Origin: an uncultured Spirochaetales bacterium
GTDB taxonomy: Bacteria; Spirochaetota; Spirochaetia; Sphaerochaetales; Sphaerochaetaceae
NCBI GenBank assembly: GCA_949282255.1
Contig: CASDPA010000016.1
Location: 1 to 46,946, forward strand
Length of the DNA stretch: 46,946 bases
Direction of reading: 5' to 3'
Each line of letters begins with the position of its first letter. The first letter of the stretch is position 1. The position numbers were made by a program, and so were the translations under genes. This document shows positions 7,403 to 40,157 of the stretch, one piece after another. The notes beneath the pieces were generated by a model. It was given only the letters and a program-made list of their open reading frames with translations. It did not search any database and had not been told where the DNA came from.

Positions 7403-8305
7403 ATGAGAAAAAACTGTTTCGCACTGATTTTACTACTTATCTTTTCGTCCGCGCTTTTTGCAGCGTTCAACCCAGAATACAGCGATTATCTGTTTTACAC
7501 GTTGGAAGATTATGAGGCGGATGAGAAATATCTTGCTCAAGCACTTTCAAGCGCTGAAAGCAACAGCGAGAAGAGCAGCATCCTCTGGCGTCAGAGCAGG
7601 AATGTCCTAACCCAGGGAGATGGCCTTGATGAAAATGACAAAGAAGGAAGGTTTGCAAAATATGAGGAGGCTGAAGCTCTGGCGATAAAATCGATAGAGC
7701 TGGAGCCAAATGCCGATGCATACCATTGGAAGAGTTCTGCAGTCGGACGCTGGGGCCAGACAAAAGGACCACTCAACTCACTGTCAAAAGCACCCGCCAT
7801 GCTCGAAGATGTCAAGATGGTCGTTGATACTTTCGGCTATGATTACACAGACGCGTGGTATGTGCTTGGACTCCTTTACAACCAGCTGCCAGGATGGCCG
7901 ATAAGCTTCGGCGATACGAATGCGGCCATAAGCTACATGAGAAAAAGTTTGGATACCAGAATCATTGGGAGAGGATTGTTTCTTACACTTTATCAAGAAC
8001 TCTCCGATCAGCTTTATGATAGGAACTGGGATGCCAAAAAGAGAGCAAAAGAATTCGATAAGATGAAGAAATCTTATGATAAGGAAAGCATACCAAGTGA
8101 GAAGATGAAATACTACGAGGGATCGGAAGGTTCTTCCAAAGTTCCCTTCTATTCCACGGTGCCTCTTTCAAAGATGAGCGACAGACAGGAAGCTGTAATG
8201 CTTTTAAGATATGCAGAGGCTCTTTACAAGGCTAAAGAAAATCCATTAGAGTCAGAAACGGAAAAATACAATGAAATCGTTGCGCGGCTCGGAGAAATCA
8301 CCTGA
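7403..8305 (+). CDS. Periplasmic TPR-repeat protein (TatT/RMD-like)
   Basis: 300 aa with a clear signal peptide (CFALILLLIFSSALFAAF) and an otherwise helical, soluble sequence containing TPR-like units, for example EALAIKSIELEPNADAY and the later block AWYVLGLLYNQLPGWPISFGD. The second block resembles the TRAP-transporter T-component/RMD-type TPR proteins, in which a proline-glycine-rich turn followed by SFGD is common. A TGGAGGAG Shine-Dalgarno lies just upstream of ATG 7403. It follows the aldehyde dehydrogenase by 17 bases and overlaps the CLC gene by 35 bases, so the three may be co-transcribed. No TRAP permease genes are nearby, so a transport role is unproven; the safest call is an exported TPR protein of unknown function. 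Confidence 0.7.
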   Translation: MRKNCFALILLLIFSSALFAAFNPEYSDYLFYTLEDYEADEKYLAQALSSAESNSEKSSILWRQSRNVLTQGDGLDENDKEGRFAKYEEAEALAIKSIELEPNADAYHWKSSAVGRWGQTKGPLNSLSKAPAMLEDVKMVVDTFGYDYTDAWYVLGLLYNQLPGWPISFGDTNAAISYMRKSLDTRIIGRGLFLTLYQELSDQLYDRNWDAKKRAKEFDKMKKSYDKESIPSEKMKYYEGSEGSSKVPFYSTVPLSKMSDRQEAVMLLRYAEALYKAKENPLESETEKYNEIVARLGEIT

Positions 8306-9560
8306 GATAAAAACAGGAAACAACTATAATATCGATATTTACCCACATTTGGAAAACGCCGTCAGAGGTCTGCTCACCGGTCTTGTGACGGCGCCTTTCA
8401 TCACATTGTTTGCAAACATGGTCCACTTTACGACCGTATTCAACACTGAGCACCGGTTCCTCATCCTTTTTCTCCCGGCAGGGGCCGCTATAATCCTTTT
8501 CACGTATTCGCGATTCGGAGCTTCAAGCAAGAAAATAACAAGCACTGCGATAAAGGAGATCCATCAGGCTGAAGACAACGAGGATATCAGCGAGGCTGAC
8601 AAGCTTATAACCCCAGGCATGGGAATCATATCCTTTTTCACAGCAGGACTCAGTCACCTTCTTGGTGCATCTGTAGGAAAAGAAGGTGCCGGGGTGCAGA
8701 TCGGTTTTACATGCGCAAGCACGATGAGCCATCTTGAAAGAAAGGTACGGGGCTCAAGCCGTTTGGATTATTATCTGATGAGCGGATCTGCCGCAGCCTT
8801 CTCCTCTCTTTTTTCCGCTCCTGTTGCAGGAACGCTTTTTGGCGCACACCTGGCCAGCCCCAAGCTCAGCAGGATGGATGCCTACCTGCCCTGTTTGGTC
8901 AGCTCCTTCACATCAAACATGGTCTCACAGGCCTTGCATATCCATGTGATTGGAATACCTGCTTTTACCCCTATGGAATTGAACAGCACAAATTTCTTAT
9001 CTGTTTTTCTTATTGCCGTACTAGTCGGCTTTGCAAGCAACCTTACCTGCCAGATGCTGGAATTTTTCAAAGAAAGGATGAATAGTCTCTATTCCTTCAA
9101 TAAATATCTGAAGGTGATCATCCCCGCTCTTTTATTGACGCTTTTTTCTCTTGCCGTATTCTTCGTTTCCGGCAATTTCAGCTACAATGGCCTTTCTTCC
9201 GATCTGATTTCCAAAGCGGTTCTGGGAGAAAGCAACATATACGATTTCCTTGTCAAGACCGTTCTTGTCCTTTTGTCCTTGTCTGCTGGATTCCAAGGAG
9301 GTGAAGTGGTCCCATTGCTTGTACTCGGCGCAACACTTTCTGCATCAGTGGCAGAAGCATTCATGCTTCCGGTTGCCCCCTTGGCGGTGCTTGGTGCGGT
9401 CGGATTCCTATCAGGAGGCATGAAGCTTCCTCTTGTGACGTTTTTCCTTGGCATGGAACTTTTTGGATATAACGAACCTCGGCTGCTTTTTGTCATGACT
9501 GTCGTATCCTTCCTTTCAAGCGGTAAAAGCGGAATTTATTCACAGCAGCGTGTAATTTAA
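8271..9560 (+). CDS. CLC-family anion/proton antiporter, fluoride-type-like
   Basis: 429 aa integral membrane protein with about ten hydrophobic segments. Key CLC motifs are GKEGAGVQIG (residues 136-145, with the gating Glu at 138), FSAPVAGTLFGAHL (about 181-194) and GFQGGEVVPLLVLGA (about 340-354). The last has GGEVxP where ordinary chloride CLCs have a GGxFxP form, and NGLS replaces the usual later motif. To my knowledge this pattern belongs to the CLC-F branch, which exports fluoride in exchange for protons. ATG 8271 lies inside the end of the TPR gene (35-base overlap) with only a weak GGA upstream; no other good start exists before the first CLC helix. No fluoride riboswitch was recognised upstream. 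CLC membership is firm, fluoride specificity is an inference. Confidence 0.82.
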   Translation: MKSLRGSEKSPEIKTGNNYNIDIYPHLENAVRGLLTGLVTAPFITLFANMVHFTTVFNTEHRFLILFLPAGAAIILFTYSRFGASSKKITSTAIKEIHQAEDNEDISEADKLITPGMGIISFFTAGLSHLLGASVGKEGAGVQIGFTCASTMSHLERKVRGSSRLDYYLMSGSAAAFSSLFSAPVAGTLFGAHLASPKLSRMDAYLPCLVSSFTSNMVSQALHIHVIGIPAFTPMELNSTNFLSVFLIAVLVGFASNLTCQMLEFFKERMNSLYSFNKYLKVIIPALLLTLFSLAVFFVSGNFSYNGLSSDLISKAVLGESNIYDFLVKTVLVLLSLSAGFQGGEVVPLLVLGATLSASVAEAFMLPVAPLAVLGAVGFLSGGMKLPLVTFFLGMELFGYNEPRLLFVMTVVSFLSSGKSGIYSQQRVI

Positions 9561-9569
9561 AAAAAGAGA

Positions 9570-9619
9570 TTGACGGAAGCCTGTATTTATATTAACATAT
9601 GAACAGATATTCATATGTT
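9570..9619 (+). promoter_or_regulatory. Promoter with SmtB/CzrA-type operator of the zinc ATPase gene
   Basis: -35 TTGACG (9570-9575), a 17-base spacer and -10 TAACAT (9593-9598). Overlapping the -10 and the start point is an inverted repeat: AACATATGAA (9594-9603), 6 bases, TTCATATGTT (9610-9619). Written as 12-2-12 it has 11 of 12 positions paired and contains ATATGAAC/ATTCATAT, the known operator form of ArsR/SmtB zinc and cadmium sensors. A repressor here would block RNA polymerase until metal is bound. Confidence 0.88.
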
Positions 9620-9633
9620 CAATGGAGAATCCA

Positions 9634-12225
9634 ATGCACCAATATACCTACAGGCTGAAAAAGGATATCGATGAAAACTGTTTTAAACCCAATTACTATT
9701 ATAAGAGACAGGGAGATTTCATTACCATTGAAAGCGATAAAAAAAGAAGCGAAATAACAAAGCAATTGCTCGATTCGAAAGTAATTATAGAGCCAAAAAC
9801 AATTACACTGGATGTAGAGGCCGATTGCATAGGCTGTCTGAACAAGGTTGAATTCATGCTGAAAAAACATCCATTAATTGAAGATGCGAGCTTCGATTTT
9901 GAAAGAAAAAAGCTTACTGTTTCCGGTTACATGAGTGAAGAAGAGATAAAGCATGAGGTAGTAAAAGTAGATAAAAACATTTCTTTTCATTCAAAGAAAA
10001 AAAGGATGAGAATATGTGCAACAATCGATTGCCCTTCATGCGCCAAAAAGGTTGAAAGAGCGTTAAACAGGCATGAGGGAATAAAAAATGCAGTATTTGA
10101 TTTTGAAAGAAAAACAATCAGCCTTACAACCGATCTTGATGAAAAGGAAGTGAAGGATATATGCAAAAAAACCGATGAGGACATAATCTTTTTGGAAAAA
10201 GAAAAAAACTACGAACTCAAGGTGAAAATCGACTGCGCAGATTGTGCACGCAAGGTTGAAGAGGCTCTAAAGAGGACAAAAGGGATAGAAAATGCGAATT
10301 TCAACTATCAAAAGGGCAGATTGACAGTTTCAGGGATCCTGCCATTGGAGGATATAAAAAGGATTTGCAAACAGGTTGAGGAAGATATCGAGTTCATCGA
10401 TGATGAGAAAAAGGAAAGAAAAGGTATTGATCAAATCTTGGTGAGAATACTGCTGGCTGCCATGCTCTTTTTCGTCTCAAAATTACTTGCAGTCCCCTAC
10501 CTTGCCATTTTGGCCTATGTCATTGCAGGCTACGATGTTCTCCTAAAAGCTTTAAGAAACATCATCAAAGGAAGAGTGTTTGATGAAAACTTCCTGATGA
10601 GTATTGCAACAATCGGGGCTCTCTTCATTTCCAGCTATGAGGAAGCCGCAGGAGTCATGATTTTCTACCAGATCGGAGAATATTTCCAGCAAAAAGCTGT
10701 TGCCAGAAGCAGAAAAAGGATCGGTGATCTGATGGACATGACCGAAGAATATGTCACGGTACTTGATGATGGCATGGAGAAGGTTGTAAAGCCTGAAGAA
10801 GTTAAAATCAATGAAGTGATAAAAATCAAAAGCGGTGAAAAGGTCGCTTTGGATTGCACCATATTGGAAGGGACTTCCTTTTTGGATAAAAGGGCGCTTA
10901 CAGGAGAAAGCATACCGGTTAAAGCCTCTCAAGGCGATTATGTGATGAGCGGAAGCATAAACGGGCAGGGAATATTGACAGCAAGAGTCCTAAAGACATA
11001 CCAGGACAGCACCGCAAGCAGAATAAAAGACCTGATGGATTCAAGCAGTACAAAAAAAGCCAAAAGCGAACGGTTCATAACCAGGTTCAGCAGATATTAT
11101 ACACCAGCAGTGTGCCTTATTGCTTTACTGGTGGCCGTTTTGATCCCTTTCCTCACAGGAGCGGATGCAAAAACCGGAATCTACAGGGCATTGAACCTTT
11201 TGGTGATCTCATGTCCATGCGCCCTCGTGCTTTCAATCCCCCTTTCCTATTTTGCCGCTATAGGAAGCTTTGCAAAAAATCAGATTCTTGTTAAGAACGC
11301 AGAAGGAATCGAAAAGCTTTCGAAGGTTAAAACAGTTGCCTTCGACAAGACCGGCACGCTCACAAAAGGCAACTTCAGGGTCATAAACATTAAAGCGCAC
11401 AACAAAAATGATGAAGAGCTTCTACTCATTGCCGCAAGCTTGGAAAAGGAAAGCAGCCATCCTGTTGCCCACTCCATTCTTGATGCATACAAAGGCAAAT
11501 CATTTCTTAGGGCTGAGGATGTGAGGGAAATTCCAGGCATAGGCCTTGAAGGGACTATAGACGGCATCAGATACCGGATTGGAAAGACAGGATGCACGGA
11601 AAGGCTTGGAAAAGATGATTTTGGAACTGTATGCCATGTTGAAAAAGACGGAATATGCATGGGCTACATTGTAATCCGTGACGAAATAAAGGAAGAGAGC
11701 GAAAACGCAATCAGAAGGCTTAAAAAGCTTGGTGTAGAAAAGACCGTCATGCTCAGCGGGGATAATGCCGCGTCTGCCTGCAGAATCGGAAGAAAGCTGC
11801 ATATTGACGAGATCCACTCATCTCTGATGCCGGAGCAGAAGCTCGAGGAGCTCGACAAGCTGATAAAGGAAAACAGCCCGGTATGCTATGTTGGGGACGG
11901 AATGAATGATGCTCCTGCGCTTATGAGAGCTGATATCGGTGTTGCCATGGGAGGAGTCGGAAGCGATGCCGCGATAGAGGCGGCGGACGCGGTTATAATG
12001 AACGACGATCTGAATAAGCTTGCAGATGCCGTTGAAATAGCAAAAAGAACGCAGAAAATAGTCATGGAAAACATCATTTTATCTCTTGGAATAAAAATTG
12101 CTGTAATGCTGTTTTCCATCATAGGACTGGCTGACATGTGGCTTGCAGTTTTTGCGGATACGGGCGTATGCTTCATCGCTGTGCTCAATGCCATGAGAGC
12201 AATGAGATTGAAAAAACAAATTTGA
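9634..12225 (+). CDS. zntA: P1B-type ATPase exporting Zn2+/Cd2+/Pb2+ with three HMA domains
   Basis: 863 aa cation-exporting ATPase of the inner membrane. A roughly 50-residue N-terminal extension is followed by three tandem HMA domains with metal-binding CIGC, CPSC and CADC. Catalytic motifs follow in order: TGES (actuator), SCPCAL (membrane metal site), DKTGTLT (phosphorylated Asp), SSHP and GDGMNDAP. The last TM reads MWLAVFADTG, as in ZntA-type (P1B-2) pumps where the Asp helps bind Zn, Cd or Pb; copper pumps differ here. Start: an ATG at 9622 is in frame, but GGAG sits 6 bases before ATG 9634, so the later start is preferred. Control by an SmtB-type repressor is indicated by the operator upstream. 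Three HMA domains are more than the one usual in ZntA, and their similar wording suggests internal duplication. Confidence 0.92.
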   Translation: MHQYTYRLKKDIDENCFKPNYYYKRQGDFITIESDKKRSEITKQLLDSKVIIEPKTITLDVEADCIGCLNKVEFMLKKHPLIEDASFDFERKKLTVSGYMSEEEIKHEVVKVDKNISFHSKKKRMRICATIDCPSCAKKVERALNRHEGIKNAVFDFERKTISLTTDLDEKEVKDICKKTDEDIIFLEKEKNYELKVKIDCADCARKVEEALKRTKGIENANFNYQKGRLTVSGILPLEDIKRICKQVEEDIEFIDDEKKERKGIDQILVRILLAAMLFFVSKLLAVPYLAILAYVIAGYDVLLKALRNIIKGRVFDENFLMSIATIGALFISSYEEAAGVMIFYQIGEYFQQKAVARSRKRIGDLMDMTEEYVTVLDDGMEKVVKPEEVKINEVIKIKSGEKVALDCTILEGTSFLDKRALTGESIPVKASQGDYVMSGSINGQGILTARVLKTYQDSTASRIKDLMDSSSTKKAKSERFITRFSRYYTPAVCLIALLVAVLIPFLTGADAKTGIYRALNLLVISCPCALVLSIPLSYFAAIGSFAKNQILVKNAEGIEKLSKVKTVAFDKTGTLTKGNFRVINIKAHNKNDEELLLIAASLEKESSHPVAHSILDAYKGKSFLRAEDVREIPGIGLEGTIDGIRYRIGKTGCTERLGKDDFGTVCHVEKDGICMGYIVIRDEIKEESENAIRRLKKLGVEKTVMLSGDNAASACRIGRKLHIDEIHSSLMPEQKLEELDKLIKENSPVCYVGDGMNDAPALMRADIGVAMGGVGSDAAIEAADAVIMNDDLNKLADAVEIAKRTQKIVMENIILSLGIKIAVMLFSIIGLADMWLAVFADTGVCFIAVLNAMRAMRLKKQI

Positions 12226-35064: not shown

Positions 35065-37002
35065 ATGAAAAATTTGCAGGTATCAGATCTAACGCTTTCC
35101 TTTGGGGAAAGAAAGATCCTTGATAATATAAGCTTCACGCTTTCAGAAACATCCAGATCAGCACTTGCCGGAGCAAACGGTTCGGGTAAGTCCACCCTTT
35201 TCAAAACTCTTGCTGGACTTTTGGAAGCCGACAGTATGAACCTTTCTCTTACCAAAGATGCCAGGATCGCATATCTTCCACAATCCGATATAGTCTTCAG
35301 CAACGAAACCGTATATGAGGCCGCGGAAAAAGGCTATGACAGATTCAAAGGTCTTTTGGCAGAACTTGAAGAATTGGAAGAAAACCTGTCTTTGGATGAT
35401 GGCAAGCAGATAAAACGTGCACAAAGGATAAGCGAGATACACGATGAGCTGAGTGAAAGCGGCTACTATGACAGGAAAAGCAGGATAGAGACTATCCTTA
35501 TGGGCCTTGGATTTCACACCTTTGATTTTTCAAGAGAGGCAGGAACGTTCTCCGGTGGATGGCAAATGAGGATTGCTTTGGCAAAAATCCTGATAGAAGA
35601 CCCCGATTTTCTCCTTTTGGACGAGCCTACGAACTATCTGGATATAGAAGCCATGACCTGGCTTGAAGGCTACCTTTCTTCTTTCGGGGGCGGGCTTATG
35701 CTGGTTTCCCACGATCAGGACTTTTTAGACAGCACAGTAAACGAGGTTTTCGAGCTTTTTAATGGAAAGCTTAAAAGATATCCTGGCAATTACACAAAAT
35801 ACCTTGAGGTCAGGCAACAAGAGATCGAAGCTCTGGAAAAGGCATATAAGAGGCAGCAGGAAGAAATAGGACGAACCGAGCAGTTCATAGAAAAATTCCG
35901 CTACAAGGCTACAAAAGCAAAACAGGTACAGTCCAGGATCAAGATGCTTGAAAAAACAGAGCTTATTGAAATACCTGCACATCTGAAAAAAATCTATTTT
36001 TCTTTTCCTGATTGTGAGAGAAGCGGAAATGATGTGCTTATCGTCGAAAACCTGAAAAAGGCCTATGGAACGAATGTGATTTATTCAGATTTCTCCTTCA
36101 CCGTCAACCGCGGCGAGCGTCTTGCCATCACTGGTAGGAACGGTGCGGGCAAATCGACCCTTTTAAGGATTCTTGCAGGTCAAGACAAAATGTTCGAAGG
36201 TACGGTGCGTTTGGGATCAAATGTCAAAACCGGGTATTTTGCCCAAGATGCGGAAAACACCCTTTCTGCTGAAAATACGGTCCTTGAAGAGATCGAGAGC
36301 ATTGCTGACACCTCAGATATCCCCAAAGTCAGGAACATGCTTGGTGCATTCCTTTTTCAGGACGATGACGTATTCAAGACGGTCAAGGTACTTTCAGGTG
36401 GGGAAAAATCAAGGCTTTCGCTTTTGAAAATACTCATGCATCCAGCCAACCTGCTTTTGCTCGATGAGCCGACAAACCATTTGGACATCAACAGCAAGGA
36501 AGTGCTGCTGAAAGCCATGAAGGAATATGGCGGTACGACAGTGTTCGTAAGCCATGACAAGCATTTCATAAGCAATCTTGCCACCAAGATCCTCTATTTA
36601 AACGAAGATGGACCGGAATTTTTCGAAGGTGATTGGGAATACTTCAATTACAAGCTCAAGCAGAAGGAAGAGGAATTTTCCGTCGTAAAGAAAACAGATA
36701 CCAGCTATCAAGAAAAGAAAAATGTTTTACAGCTTTCCCATGAGCAGATAAAAGTGCTCAGAAATAAGAAGAAATCCTTGAAAAGGGAAATAGAGGACAT
36801 AGAGGACAGCATCAAAAGAATAGAAGATGATATTGCAGAGCTCGAAGGAGAGAGCATGAAAAGCGAAAACTACTCCGATGCGCTGAAAATAACTGCAATC
36901 CTTGCCAAAAAGAAAGACAAGGAAAGGGAAAAGGAAGAAAAGGAAAATCTATGGCTGGAAAAAACGATGCTTTTGGAGCAATACAATGAACAGGATAAAT
37001 GA
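35065..37002 (+). CDS. ABC-F family ATPase (ribosome-associated type)
   Basis: 645 aa with two ABC domains and no membrane segments. Domain 1: GANGSGKST (Walker A, about residue 34), FSGGWQMR (signature), LLLDEPTNYLD (Walker B). A charged linker of about 80 residues (EKAYKRQQEEIGRTEQFIEK) follows, the ribosome-probing interdomain linker. Domain 2: GRNGAGKST, LSGGEKSR, LLLDEPTNHLD. The C-terminal 110 residues form a coiled coil, as in Uup/YkpA-like members. ABC-F proteins act on the ribosome, some giving antibiotic protection; which subfamily this is remains open. It overlaps maf by 17 bases. Confidence 0.92.
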   Translation: MKNLQVSDLTLSFGERKILDNISFTLSETSRSALAGANGSGKSTLFKTLAGLLEADSMNLSLTKDARIAYLPQSDIVFSNETVYEAAEKGYDRFKGLLAELEELEENLSLDDGKQIKRAQRISEIHDELSESGYYDRKSRIETILMGLGFHTFDFSREAGTFSGGWQMRIALAKILIEDPDFLLLDEPTNYLDIEAMTWLEGYLSSFGGGLMLVSHDQDFLDSTVNEVFELFNGKLKRYPGNYTKYLEVRQQEIEALEKAYKRQQEEIGRTEQFIEKFRYKATKAKQVQSRIKMLEKTELIEIPAHLKKIYFSFPDCERSGNDVLIVENLKKAYGTNVIYSDFSFTVNRGERLAITGRNGAGKSTLLRILAGQDKMFEGTVRLGSNVKTGYFAQDAENTLSAENTVLEEIESIADTSDIPKVRNMLGAFLFQDDDVFKTVKVLSGGEKSRLSLLKILMHPANLLLLDEPTNHLDINSKEVLLKAMKEYGGTTVFVSHDKHFISNLATKILYLNEDGPEFFEGDWEYFNYKLKQKEEEFSVVKKTDTSYQEKKNVLQLSHEQIKVLRNKKKSLKREIEDIEDSIKRIEDDIAELEGESMKSENYSDALKITAILAKKKDKEREKEEKENLWLEKTMLLEQYNEQDK

Positions 37003-37606
37003 ACCGGATGAACTGCAGCTAAAATTCTCAAAACGCTTTCCTCGCCTGATGCTGGCCTCCTCATCGGCCAATAGAAAAGGCCTTCTGCAAGCCGGAGGCT
37101 CTATTGTGGAGGTTTTCAAACCAGATGCAGACGAAACAAAAAATGGTTCGTCTTTTATCAATATTGTGGAAAACATCGCTGCAAAAAAACTTGATGCATA
37201 CCTCTCCTCTTCCGCATTCAGACCGGATATCCCGGCAATCGCAGCAGACACGCTGGTGCTTTTTTCTAATTCACTCCTCGGAAAACCTGCTGATTCTCAA
37301 GATGCCAAGAGAATGCTGAAAATGCTTTCAGGAAAAAAGCACAGCGTAATCAGCGCAGTAGGACTTTATCTGCCAGGAGGAAGGAAAAAGGTTTTCTCCG
37401 ATGTGGCAGAAGTTTATTTCAAAAGTCTTGATGAAAATGAGATCGATGCCTATTTAGAAACAGGAGAATGGTGCGGTGCAGCCGGTGCATACAGGCTCCA
37501 AAAAACAGGGTACAAGCTCGTTGAACATATTTCAGGGGACTGGACAACGGTTGTCGGACTTCCTCTTGAAAGGATTTTGATGGAAAGTCAGGCCATTTCA
37601 GAGTAA
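36986..37606 (+). CDS. maf: Maf-family nucleotide pyrophosphatase
   Basis: 206 aa. Maf proteins hydrolyse dTTP/UTP or modified nucleotides and are thought to keep them out of DNA and RNA. Signatures: LASSSANRKGLL (the phosphate-binding N-terminal motif), FKPDADETK, AADTLVLF (catalytic Asp) and GKKHSVISAVGLY. The start at 36986, with GGAG 7 bases upstream, gives the N-terminal extension MNRINEPDELQLKFSKRF before the motif. It overlaps the ABC-F gene by 17 bases and the convergent arsR-type gene by 19. Confidence 0.9.
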   Translation: MNRINEPDELQLKFSKRFPRLMLASSSANRKGLLQAGGSIVEVFKPDADETKNGSSFINIVENIAAKKLDAYLSSSAFRPDIPAIAADTLVLFSNSLLGKPADSQDAKRMLKMLSGKKHSVISAVGLYLPGGRKKVFSDVAEVYFKSLDENEIDAYLETGEWCGAAGAYRLQKTGYKLVEHISGDWTTVVGLPLERILMESQAISE

Positions 37607-37893
37607 TGTTCTGTTCCAAGAGCAAGTATCTTGTGGATATGCTCGTCATTAAGGCGGTATATGGCCATTTTACCGTCTTTGCGGAACCTGACCAGCCTGT
37701 TTTGCCGCAGCACCTTCAGCTGTTGCGATATCGCAGACTGGCTCATAAGAAGCGCATCGGCTATTGTGTTCACCGATGCCTCCCCCTTCTCATCCAGAAA
37801 AAATAATATTTTCAGCCGGGTGGTATCCCCGAACAATTTATAAAAATCAGCAAGATCGGAGATATCCTCATCTGCAAGATTCAATGTTTCCAT
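37588..37893 (-). CDS. ArsR/SmtB-family zinc-type metal sensor repressor
   Basis: 101 aa winged-helix repressor. The HTH lies at about residues 43-63 (IADALLMSQSAISQQLKVL), followed by the wing RKDGKMAIYRL. The C-terminal helix carries Asp83, His85, His96 and Glu99, exactly the spacing of the SmtB alpha5 zinc site (D-x-H-x10-H-x2-E). There are no Cys residues, so arsenic or CadC-type cadmium sites are excluded. An ATG 14 codons earlier is open but lies upstream of the expected transcript start. The mRNA is probably leaderless. The likely target is the operator in front of the zinc ATPase gene at 9594-9619. Confidence 0.88.
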   Translation of the reverse strand: METLNLADEDISDLADFYKLFGDTTRLKILFFLDEKGEASVNTIADALLMSQSAISQQLKVLRQNRLVRFRKDGKMAIYRLNDEHIHKILALGTEHYSEMA

Positions 37894-37899
37894 GGATAA

Positions 37900-37929
37900 A
37901 ATATAACCCGAAATAATTAATATTGTTAA
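37900..37929 (-). promoter_or_regulatory. Promoter of the metal-sensor gene (probably leaderless)
   Basis: Minus strand TTAACA (37929-37924), an 18-base spacer, TATATT (37905-37900), then 6 bases to the ATG at 37893. Confidence 0.55.
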
Positions 37930-37935
37930 GTGCAT

Positions 37936-37964
37936 TTGTTTATTTATCCTTTTTGGGCTATACT
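37936..37964 (+). promoter_or_regulatory. Promoter of the beta-hydroxyacid dehydrogenase-gltA operon (probably leaderless)
   Basis: TTGTTT (37936-37941), a 17-base spacer, TATACT (37959-37964), then 6 bases to ATG 37971. There is no Shine-Dalgarno. It stands back to back with the metal-sensor promoter. Confidence 0.65.
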
Positions 37965-37970
37965 CATATC

Positions 37971-38852
37971 ATGTTCAACAAAATAGGTTTTATCGGAATC
38001 GGAGTGATGGGAAAAAGCATGGCCGCCCATCTTATGGATGCATACGGCCCTATCCTCATATACTCCAGGACAAAAAGCAAAGCTGAAGATCTGATTTCAC
38101 GCGGTGCAATCTGGAAGGACAGTGTGAAGGAGATTGCACAGGAAGCAGACCTCATCTTTACTATCGTAGGATATCCAAGCGATGTCGAAAGCATTTACCT
38201 TTCCGAGGATGGTTTAGTAAATAATGCAAAGGAAGGCACCTTCTTCTGCGATATGACGACAACCACTCCAAGTTTGGAGATGAAAATTGCCAAGCAAGCC
38301 GCCAAAAGAGGTTGCAAGTTCTTTGATGCTCCTGTAAGCGGAGGGGATGTAGGTGCGAGAAATGCCACTCTCACCATCATGCTTGGAGGGGATAAGGATT
38401 CTCTTGATGACATCATCCCCTACCTTGAGAAAATGGGAAAAAGCATCAATTACATGGGAAAGGCCGGTATGGGCCAGCACACAAAGATGTGCAACCAGAT
38501 AGTCATTTCCGGAACGATGATAGGCGTCTCTGAAGCTCTTGTCTACGGGAAAAAAGCAGGCCTGGATGTCCCTGCGATGATCGATGCGATCCGCCCGGGA
38601 GCAGCTGGATGCTGGACGCTGGACAATCTTGCACCAAGAGTGGTGAAAAATGATTTTGCACCTGGATTCATGATCGACCATTTCATCAAGGATATGAAAA
38701 TAGCCTTGGAAGAAAGCAAAGCTATGAATATTGAACTTAAAGGGCTCGCCCTTGTTGAAAAGCTTTACGAAAAACTGCAGGAAGAAGGATACGGCAAAGA
38801 CGGTACGCAAGCCCTTGTAAAAGCTGTTGAAGCTACGGCAAAGGAGGTTTGA
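37971..38852 (+). CDS. Beta-hydroxyacid dehydrogenase (3-hydroxyisobutyrate dehydrogenase family)
   Basis: 293 aa NAD(P)-dependent dehydrogenase. Motifs in order: the dinucleotide-binding GFIGIGVMGKSM, the substrate-binding DAPVSGGDVGA (about residue 115-125), and GKAGMGQHTKMCNQ with the catalytic Lys. These define the family of 3-hydroxyisobutyrate, tartronate semialdehyde and related reductases; the exact substrate cannot be read from these motifs. The ORF opens 16 codons earlier, inside the promoter, so ATG 37971 is chosen. Citrate synthase starts directly after its stop codon, so the two are co-transcribed. Confidence 0.88.
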   Translation: MFNKIGFIGIGVMGKSMAAHLMDAYGPILIYSRTKSKAEDLISRGAIWKDSVKEIAQEADLIFTIVGYPSDVESIYLSEDGLVNNAKEGTFFCDMTTTTPSLEMKIAKQAAKRGCKFFDAPVSGGDVGARNATLTIMLGGDKDSLDDIIPYLEKMGKSINYMGKAGMGQHTKMCNQIVISGTMIGVSEALVYGKKAGLDVPAMIDAIRPGAAGCWTLDNLAPRVVKNDFAPGFMIDHFIKDMKIALEESKAMNIELKGLALVEKLYEKLQEEGYGKDGTQALVKAVEATAKEV

Positions 38853-40157
38853 ATGCTCAACCTCGAGGAAAAGAAGAAGGCTAAACTCATCTTCCCTGAT
38901 GGAAAGGAATACGAGCTTAATGTAATGACGGATACAATGGGTGACAGGTCTGTAGATATCACAAACCTTCGTAAGGATACAGGCTATATCACCTATGACC
39001 CGGGATTTGTCAATACAGGGTCATGCATGTCCAAAATCTGCTACATCAATGGAGAAAAAGGCATACTTCGTTACAGGGGATATGATATCGAAGACCTTGT
39101 CGAACATTGTGACTTCATCGAGGTGGCATATCTGCTTGTAAAGGGCACGCTTCCAAATACCGCGGAAAGAATCAACTATCAGAAGCTTTTGAACAAGCAT
39201 TCGCTTTTACATGTGAACATGAGAGATTTTTTCCGGGCTTATCCTCATGACGGACATCCCATGGGAATACTTTCAGCAATGGTTGCATCCCTTTCCGCTT
39301 TCTATCCGGAATTGGAAGAAAAAGACCCTGAGGAGAATATCGACCTCACAGTTACAAGGCTTCTTTCAAAGATGAGGACAATTGCTGCCTTCACTTACAG
39401 GCAGATGAACGGACTGCCATATGTGGAACCGCAGTACAACTACTCATATTGTGCGAATTTCCTTAACATGATGTTCTATTCAAGTGTGAACAACTACACT
39501 CCGGATCCACTTCATGTCCAAGCACTCAACAAGCTTCTGATCCTGCACGCAGACCATGAACAGAACTGTTCCACAAGCGCAGTACGGCTTGTCGGTTCTT
39601 CAGAAGCAAACCTTTATGCTTCGGTTGCTGCCGGCTGTTGCGCACTATGGGGAAGCAAGCACGGTGGTGCAAATCAGGCAGTGATGGACATGCTGCAGAA
39701 AACTCATCAGGAAGGAATGAGCATCGACGAGGTCATTGCAAAGGCTAAGGATAAGAGTGACAGCTTCCGTCTTTCCGGGTTTGGGCACAGGGTATACAAG
39801 ACCTTCGATCCAAGAGCAAAGATTGCAAAACAGATCTGCAAACAGATTTTGGCACAATCGGAAGGTGGAGATCCGCTTCTTGATATTGCCTTGGAAATCG
39901 AGGAACGCGCCACCCATGACGATTATTTTATCGAAAGAAACCTTTATCCGAATGTCGACTTTTATACAGGCCTCACCTTCCATGCAATGGGCATACCTGT
40001 ATCGATGTTCACAGTGCTTTTTGCAATGGGCAGACTTCCTGGCTGGATAGCCCACTATCTTGAATGGAGGCATGACCCATACCAGAAGATCGGCCGACCA
40101 CGTCAGGTTTATTCAGGACCGACGATGAGAAAGGTTGTTCCGATAAACGAAAGATGA
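38853..40157 (+). CDS. gltA: Citrate synthase
   Basis: 434 aa, the type II (GltA-like) length, with the extra N-terminal domain. It condenses oxaloacetate and acetyl-CoA to citrate. Active-site segments: HADHEQN (His), GSKHGGANQAV (substrate-binding His), GFGHRVYK (catalytic His) and NVDFYTG (catalytic Asp), all intact. AAGGAGG lies 5 bases before the ATG, in the end of the dehydrogenase gene. A strong terminator follows about 80 bases later. Aconitase and isocitrate dehydrogenase are encoded nearby on the other strand. Confidence 0.96.
   Translation: MLNLEEKKKAKLIFPDGKEYELNVMTDTMGDRSVDITNLRKDTGYITYDPGFVNTGSCMSKICYINGEKGILRYRGYDIEDLVEHCDFIEVAYLLVKGTLPNTAERINYQKLLNKHSLLHVNMRDFFRAYPHDGHPMGILSAMVASLSAFYPELEEKDPEENIDLTVTRLLSKMRTIAAFTYRQMNGLPYVEPQYNYSYCANFLNMMFYSSVNNYTPDPLHVQALNKLLILHADHEQNCSTSAVRLVGSSEANLYASVAAGCCALWGSKHGGANQAVMDMLQKTHQEGMSIDEVIAKAKDKSDSFRLSGFGHRVYKTFDPRAKIAKQICKQILAQSEGGDPLLDIALEIEERATHDDYFIERNLYPNVDFYTGLTFHAMGIPVSMFTVLFAMGRLPGWIAHYLEWRHDPYQKIGRPRQVYSGPTMRKVVPINER

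Follow-up and report, generated by a model that had tools for sequence, protein, structure and literature searches.

The gene for the zinc sensor CzrA of Bacillus subtilis lies apart from its targets. In this organism, an excess of zinc leads to derepression of CadA and CzcD (PMC5189952). A remote position has also been described for AzuR of Anabaena sp. PCC 7120, whose gene is located inside a zinc-uptake operon and whose product binds the promoter of the metallothionein gene nmtA in gel shift experiments; the surroundings of the azuR operon yielded no 12-2-12 repeat (PMC8790569). Here, we have analyzed a stretch of 46,946 nt (hereafter the window) from an uncultured Spirochaetales bacterium (assembly GCA_949282255.1, contig CASDPA010000016.1), which contains genes for an ArsR/SmtB-family sensor and a P1B-type ATPase at a distance of 28 kb. 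A preliminary description of this DNA had proposed that the sensor controls the ATPase in trans, and this proposal is supported by the uniqueness of the operator, by relatives of the sensor that are linked to ATPases and by the way in which operators and regulators track each other in the genus. We consider it highly probable that the sensor represses the ATPase in trans through a site at 9594-9619, that zinc relieves this repression and that the arrangement is a derived state of a Sphaerochaeta-related clade.

Comparison with the described systems shows several likenesses. As with AzuR, an alpha5-type SmtB/ArsR sensor is remote from its proposed target, at whose promoter there is a 12-2-12 repeat; unlike AzuR, whose target is a metallothionein gene (PMC8790569), the window sensor would act on an efflux ATPase and lies among genes with no evident metal function. 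Since AzuR is known as a trans-acting alpha5 sensor without an operator at its own locus, the arrangement in the window is of an already known kind. Like CzrA, the sensor would respond to zinc excess and serve a CadA-type efflux system, although CzrA serves two exporters and only one site was found here (PMC5189952). ZiaR of Synechocystis, on the other hand, is encoded divergently beside its target (PMC8790569). TtSmtB of Thermus thermophilus HB27 is an ArsR/SmtB regulator with dispersed resistance genes, as is the case here, but belongs to an arsenic system (PMC5658604). No paper treating Sphaerochaeta, zinc and ArsR together was found in the open-access library searched, and the present finding amounts to a prediction of how zinc efflux is switched in spirochaetes related to Sphaerochaeta.

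The sensor gene is found on the minus strand at 37588-37893, where an open reading frame closed by a stop encodes 101 amino acids. It had been described as carrying a complete alpha5 site (Asp83, His85, His96 and Glu99) with SmtB spacing and as having no Cys; the translation bears out both statements, and alignment to SmtB of Synechococcus (1r22/1r1t) reveals the same ligand set and spacing, the matching positions in SmtB being 104, 106, 117 and 120. The four columns were invariant in an alignment of 18 sequences. In a larger alignment of 92 rows (the window, 80 named loci and 11 relatives' loci), in which any stop would appear as X, D, H and H were present in all 92, and E in 85 with a gap in the other 7; sensor matches lacking a stored locus (G052, G040, G036 and the second one of G012) were left out of the sensor alignments. 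The protein passed the cut-offs of PF01022 (48.1 bits against 22) and NF033788 (88.1 against 55) and thus has the ArsR-type winged-helix domain; the D-x-H ... H-x2-E/H ligands of the last helix are present too. By sequence, the closest solved structures were SmtB 1r22 and 1r1t, followed by CadC and CzrA, and the best PDB match was SmtB (E 2.1e-14). An ArsR/SmtB-family alpha5-type zinc sensor-repressor is the best explanation of this protein, its response to zinc being predicted. It should be noted that the ligand set by itself cannot tell Zn from Co or Ni.

With regard to its surroundings, the sensor gene converges with a Maf-like gene (36902-37606, plus strand) and diverges from a gene of the 3-hydroxyisobutyrate-dehydrogenase type, called garR here (37923-38852, plus strand), for which the in-frame ATG at 37971 is a likelier start than the listed TTG at 37923. 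Citrate synthase (gltA) follows at 38853-40157 on the plus strand, and both garR and gltA are recurrent landmarks of the sensor locus. A possible promoter of the sensor, TTAACA-N18-TATATT, was seen on the minus strand at 37900-37929, 6 nt before the ATG. It is a consensus match only and has no operator; two promoter-type pairs were found in the 551-nt region against 1.5 expected by chance, and both hexamers are also present in the related genomes G003 and G034. A transcript starting from it would be nearly leaderless. The earlier claim that no matching operator stands beside the sensor agrees with our scan, in which no site with fewer than five mismatches occurred in the 300 nt upstream. Neither of the two features of an ArsR/SmtB operon, a sensor adjoining its target and an operator upstream of the sensor, is found in the window, and calling the sensor non-autoregulated means that no recognisable operator is present, and no more.

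The ATPase gene occupies 9634-12225 on the plus strand, its open reading frame being listed from 9622. ATG 9634 is the more likely start, because GGAG at 9624-9627 would serve as the Shine-Dalgarno sequence (a probable one, judged by comparison with G003 and G034) and because G034 has no upstream ATG. ATPases of the P1B-2 group for Zn, Cd and Pb (ZntA/CadA) are marked by CPC, DKTGT, N-terminal CxxC HMA domains, and an Asp and a Gly in the final membrane helix. All of these motifs were identified in the window protein, namely CPC at 531, DKTGT at 575, DTG at 846 and three HMA domains with CIGC, CPSC and CADC. It passed the cadmium family model TIGR01512 (492.5 bits, cut-off 313.5) and stayed under the cut-off of the copper model TIGR01511 (352.5 against 397), while the ZntA equivalog models gave high scores that were still under their cut-offs. 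A zinc exporter of P1B-2 type is the best explanation of this predicted product. No regulator gene lies beside the ATPase, as had been stated before: its neighbours are a gene for a ClC-type channel and an EF-G gene. The former, a chloride channel gene at 8271-9560, is directly 5' of the operator and the ATPase, and the same pairing recurs in G026 (L055), whose ATPase is only 48% identical to that of the window.

The promoter of the ATPase consists of a -35 hexamer TTGACG (9570-9575) and, 17 nt further on, a -10 hexamer TAACAT (9593-9598), both on the plus strand; the region contains two pairs of this kind, where 1.1 would be expected, and TTGAC stands 24-25 nt 5' of the operator in nine of the ten genomes of the genus with the same operator class (AA; window included), the exception being G011. 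The near-perfect 12-2-12 operator claimed over this -10 is indeed present at 9594-9619. It reads AACATATGAACA-GA-TATTCATATGTT, is symmetric at 11 of 12 positions and covers five of the six bases of the -10, and its binding by the sensor is predicted. At up to 3 mismatches, the 26-mer matched only once in the window (expectation 0.00 from 100 shuffles). The genome search suggested by the preliminary description yielded a single site as well, the one other match in the 2.35 Mb of the assembly having 3 mismatches. A looser scan with the 18-mer core at up to 3 mismatches is mostly noise: it gave 41 and 38 matches on the two strands, and the reversed control gave 32 and 25. One position with a single mismatch (G000:C7:86104) was considered as a second member of the regulon and rejected, as it lies inside a 291-aa reading frame that appears AraC-like by eye. 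The parts of the system, their uniqueness, conservation and co-occurrence are established from sequence.

Five HTH_5 matches were obtained in the assembly, which is 96.75% complete: the sensor, two other ArsR-type proteins, one of DeoR type and one other winged-helix protein. The search for other ArsR/SmtB proteins, also suggested earlier, thus gave two candidates (on contigs C2 and C30), neither with alpha5 ligands; one is a neighbour of an ArsP_1 permease and the other of an unrelated frame. Since no other alpha5-type ArsR was found in the assembly and the operator is unique there, the pairing of sensor and ATPase is supported. It is nevertheless conceivable that the operator is read by another regulator, either one of these two or one encoded in the missing few percent, and that the sensor has a different target; six genomes of the genus that keep the sensor despite another operator class (see below) hint at such another role there. 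We regard this as very unlikely, given that neither of the other ArsR proteins has the alpha5 ligands and one stands beside its own permease, that no other good operator was found in the assembly, and that the recognition helix of the window sensor (QSAISQQLK) is close to that of regulators encoded beside this operator (QSAISHQLR in sensors with an operator of the AACATATGAACAGTTATTCATATGTT type).

Besides the window ATPase, two other P1B ATPases were found in the genome, 34-35% identical to it; one scored higher with the copper than with the cadmium model and the other passed both models. Upstream of another P1B ATPase (L318, G000:C1:17000-20200), before a short reading frame, there is a ATACCCCCTATGGGTAT palindrome, which resembles a CsoR copper operator.

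On the preferred reading, repression by the window sensor, a dimer of the apo-sensor would occupy the single 12-2-12 site at 9594-9619, over the -10 and the start region, and block RNA polymerase. Once bound by D83 and H85 together with H96' and E99' (the alpha5 site), zinc would lower the affinity for DNA and allow the ATPase to be made, and the ATPase, once made, would export zinc. The sensor itself, encoded 28 kb away with no recognisable operator, is probably expressed without feedback. The DNA binding, zinc as inducer and the constitutive expression of the sensor are what we infer here, as is the order of losses discussed below.

To place the sensor in its family, the best 80 of 566 relatives from a profile scan of named genomes were kept; 38 loci (L182-L219) are Spirochaetales records including Sphaerochaeta (inside the clade) and 42 (L220-L261) belong to Lachnospiraceae, other Clostridia, Treponema and some Spirochaetales (outside the clade). 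Among these best 80, a P1B ATPase came after the sensor in 34 of the 42 loci outside the clade; in 3 others it was a permease, and 5 had neither, whereas an ATPase or permease match occurred in 0 of the 38 clade loci in their stored flanks, which are short in some; citrate synthase was present in the stored flanks of 28 of these 38. The 34 ATPase operons, for example in Lachnospiraceae and Treponema, resemble the window in having a sensor up to 58% identical, a P1B ATPase and, in many of them, an operator nearly the same as that of the window ATPase (for example AACATATGAACAGTTATTCATATGTT in L241, L248 and L249). They differ in that the sensor lies directly 5' of the ATPase and the operator before the sensor. 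A further difference is a Cys-Val-Cys of the alpha3N kind, present in 11 of the 12 ATPase-linked relatives inspected (L221-L258) and missing from the window lineage, which suggests the loss of a second metal site in the latter.

The same absence means that selectivity may have changed, and P1B-2 ATPases also move Cd and Pb, so a sensor that represses the ATPase but responds mainly to Co, Ni or Cd has to be considered. The ligand set and spacing are, however, of SmtB type and invariant in the family, and there is no Cys for soft metals; a principal response to one of these other metals appears quite unlikely, and zinc remains the preferred inducer.

A single rule was used to compare operators upstream of sensors, at least 16 of 18 positions within 300 nt. 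It was reached by 0 of 39 sensors in the clade (window included) versus 40 of 53 outside it, and by one of 1820 shuffled upstream sequences; 13 of the 53 outside sensors had no operator at this level. This result bears on the alternative of autoregulation by way of a weak or atypical site to which the scan is blind. Three promoters in the genus carry asymmetric sites of class BA (see below), showing that true operators need not be symmetric, but the scores of clade members (10-14) are within the range of shuffled sequence and the best site of the window sensor has at least five mismatches, as mentioned above. Autoregulation of this type is therefore unlikely, and expression without feedback is still our preferred reading.

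In the sensor tree, all 39 orphan sensors fell on one branch (SH-aLRT 85) with the permease-linked sensors nearest; the tree is based on 94 columns, has many open forks and long branches that meet, and its labels come from neighbours in stored flanks only. We rejected the idea that the window state arose when an operon of sensor and ATPase was split directly, as it is permease-linked and not ATPase-linked sensors that adjoin the clade in this tree. In three genomes from other families of the class (G037, G038 and G051), the sensor is located at the same citrate-synthase or garR locus as in the clade; there, an operator-like site precedes it (2, 2 and 0 mismatches, respectively) and a permease gene follows it in place of the Maf-like gene. 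In G051, this permease scored above the NCBI cut-off for the SO_0444 family of Cu/Zn efflux transporters. The occurrence of permease and operator at these citrate-synthase-locus sensors suggests that both were lost in the window clade and that the sensor stayed. The series would thus comprise more distant sensors in one operon with an ATPase, the nearest non-clade sensors, which share an operator-preceded operon with an SO_0444-type permease, and, in the clade, a sensor that stayed at the citrate-synthase locus, its operator and partner gene gone, and acts in trans.

We also searched 22 further genomes of the clade for the operator. A site with 0-1 mismatch was identified in four of them (G061, G062, G063 and G077), in each case directly 5' of a P1B ATPase. 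With the sensor profile, no ArsR-like frame was detected in the 9.4-10.1 kb around these four sites (about 5 kb each way); the same profile does recover the sensor when applied to the control loci L192 and L193. G061 holds L192, the sensor locus of Sphaerochaeta halotolerans; judged from the length of the contig and the coordinates, some 49 kb of a single contig separate the sensor of this species from the operator-bearing ATPase. In the remaining 18 genomes there was no site with 0-1 mismatch, and two of the genomes had no match at all. Where the best site had 2 mismatches, six genomes were inspected (G081:C449 being left out) and the site was at an ATPase in only one, G079. Our confidence in the pairing of sensor and ATPase is slightly lower because a near-exact operator is present in only 4 of these 22 genomes. 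In G063, the ATPase behind a good operator (L324, L270) is split over two overlapping frames, owing either to a frameshift or to an assembly error.

Within the genus of the window, 36 genomes were compared (the window's own and 35 others), of which 19 contain the sensor. By half-site, the ATPase promoters comprised 10 of class AA, 3 hybrids (BA) and 21 of class BB; two were unreadable because the ATPase is at a contig end (G029 and G035) and were left out of the comparison, which covers 34 genomes. One promoter (G013) was read by eye: its operator, at a contig end, is identical to that of G022, with whose contig its 4,078 bases align at 90%. The 33 scored promoters reached 16-18 of 18 positions, whereas a score of 16 was attained once in 660 shuffles and none of 35 segments from within the ATPase gene scored above 14.

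The distribution of regulators followed these classes. The sensor was present in 12 of 13 AA or BA genomes versus 6 of 21 BB genomes; a rival CadC-like regulator (counted as present at 46% or more identity to P0006) showed the reverse, with 0 of 13 versus 20 of 21, and in 16 of the 21 BB genomes a CadC-like ArsR gene lies in the stored flanks of the ATPase. The nominal Fisher values for the genus association (3.7e-4 and 1.5e-8) are overstated since the counts are not independent. On the citrate-synthase tree, each trait requires only three changes and only two independent contrasts were obtained, neither sign test being near significance; both contrasts were in the expected direction for the CadC-like regulator and about one for the sensor, the other showing no difference. 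Few independent evolutionary events are behind the genus and clade counts.

Two exceptions deserve mention. G030 has an AA operator and the ATPase and yet no ArsR over the cut-off. Its assembly also has no citrate synthase, for which reason it is off the citrate-synthase tree, and because the sensor is next to citrate synthase in the related genomes G005, G013 and G022, the missing sensor is likely an assembly gap. The second exception, G008, combines the sensor with a BB operator, and no CadC-like regulator was found in it, which implies either that the sensor also binds BB sites or that a gene is missing. Altogether, six BB genomes keep the sensor (G004, G008, G012, G020, G021 and G027). An AA-type core with 0-1 mismatch was listed in none of five of them, the sites of G020 being unlisted, and in these genomes the sensor may be a vestige or act on something else.

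The hybrid genomes G002, G010 and G017 (82, 86 and 95% complete) contain a BB-type ATPase with a small HMA partner and the sensor. The right half of their operators, TTCATATGTT, is the AA half, and no CadC-like regulator was found in these assemblies. These observations are consistent with a clade-wide decoupling, which we regard as an evenly balanced proposition. Both the permease partner and the sensor's own operator would have been lost, and the sensor, still at the old housekeeping locus, would have become a trans-repressor of the zinc ATPase; in part of the genus, a CadC-like regulator would have arrived together with a second type of ATPase, with the other operator class and usually with loss of the old sensor, and in the three hybrid-operator genomes the old sensor seemingly took over the second ATPase. 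No printed account of this series was found in the literature searched. Its natural states (autoregulated operon, orphan trans sensor, regulator replacement and hybrid operators) illustrate how a metal sensor can leave its operon and keep a target.

In the second kind of ATPase of the genus (L088-L094, L110 and others), the HMA domain is a separate small protein encoded just upstream, an arrangement that produces a spurious in-frame TGA in read-through searches. In-frame TGA codons in relatives' ATPases were considered as possible selenocysteine codons and this was rejected: where inspected, TGA is the stop of the separate small HMA protein before the ATPase, and in G004 and G035 it terminates the ATPase itself, where the match ends. 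Finally, palindromes of the AATTAA type, and not of the ATATGAACA type, are present upstream of the sensors in L036 (G059) and L035 (G044), so both half-site classes of the genus also occur outside it.
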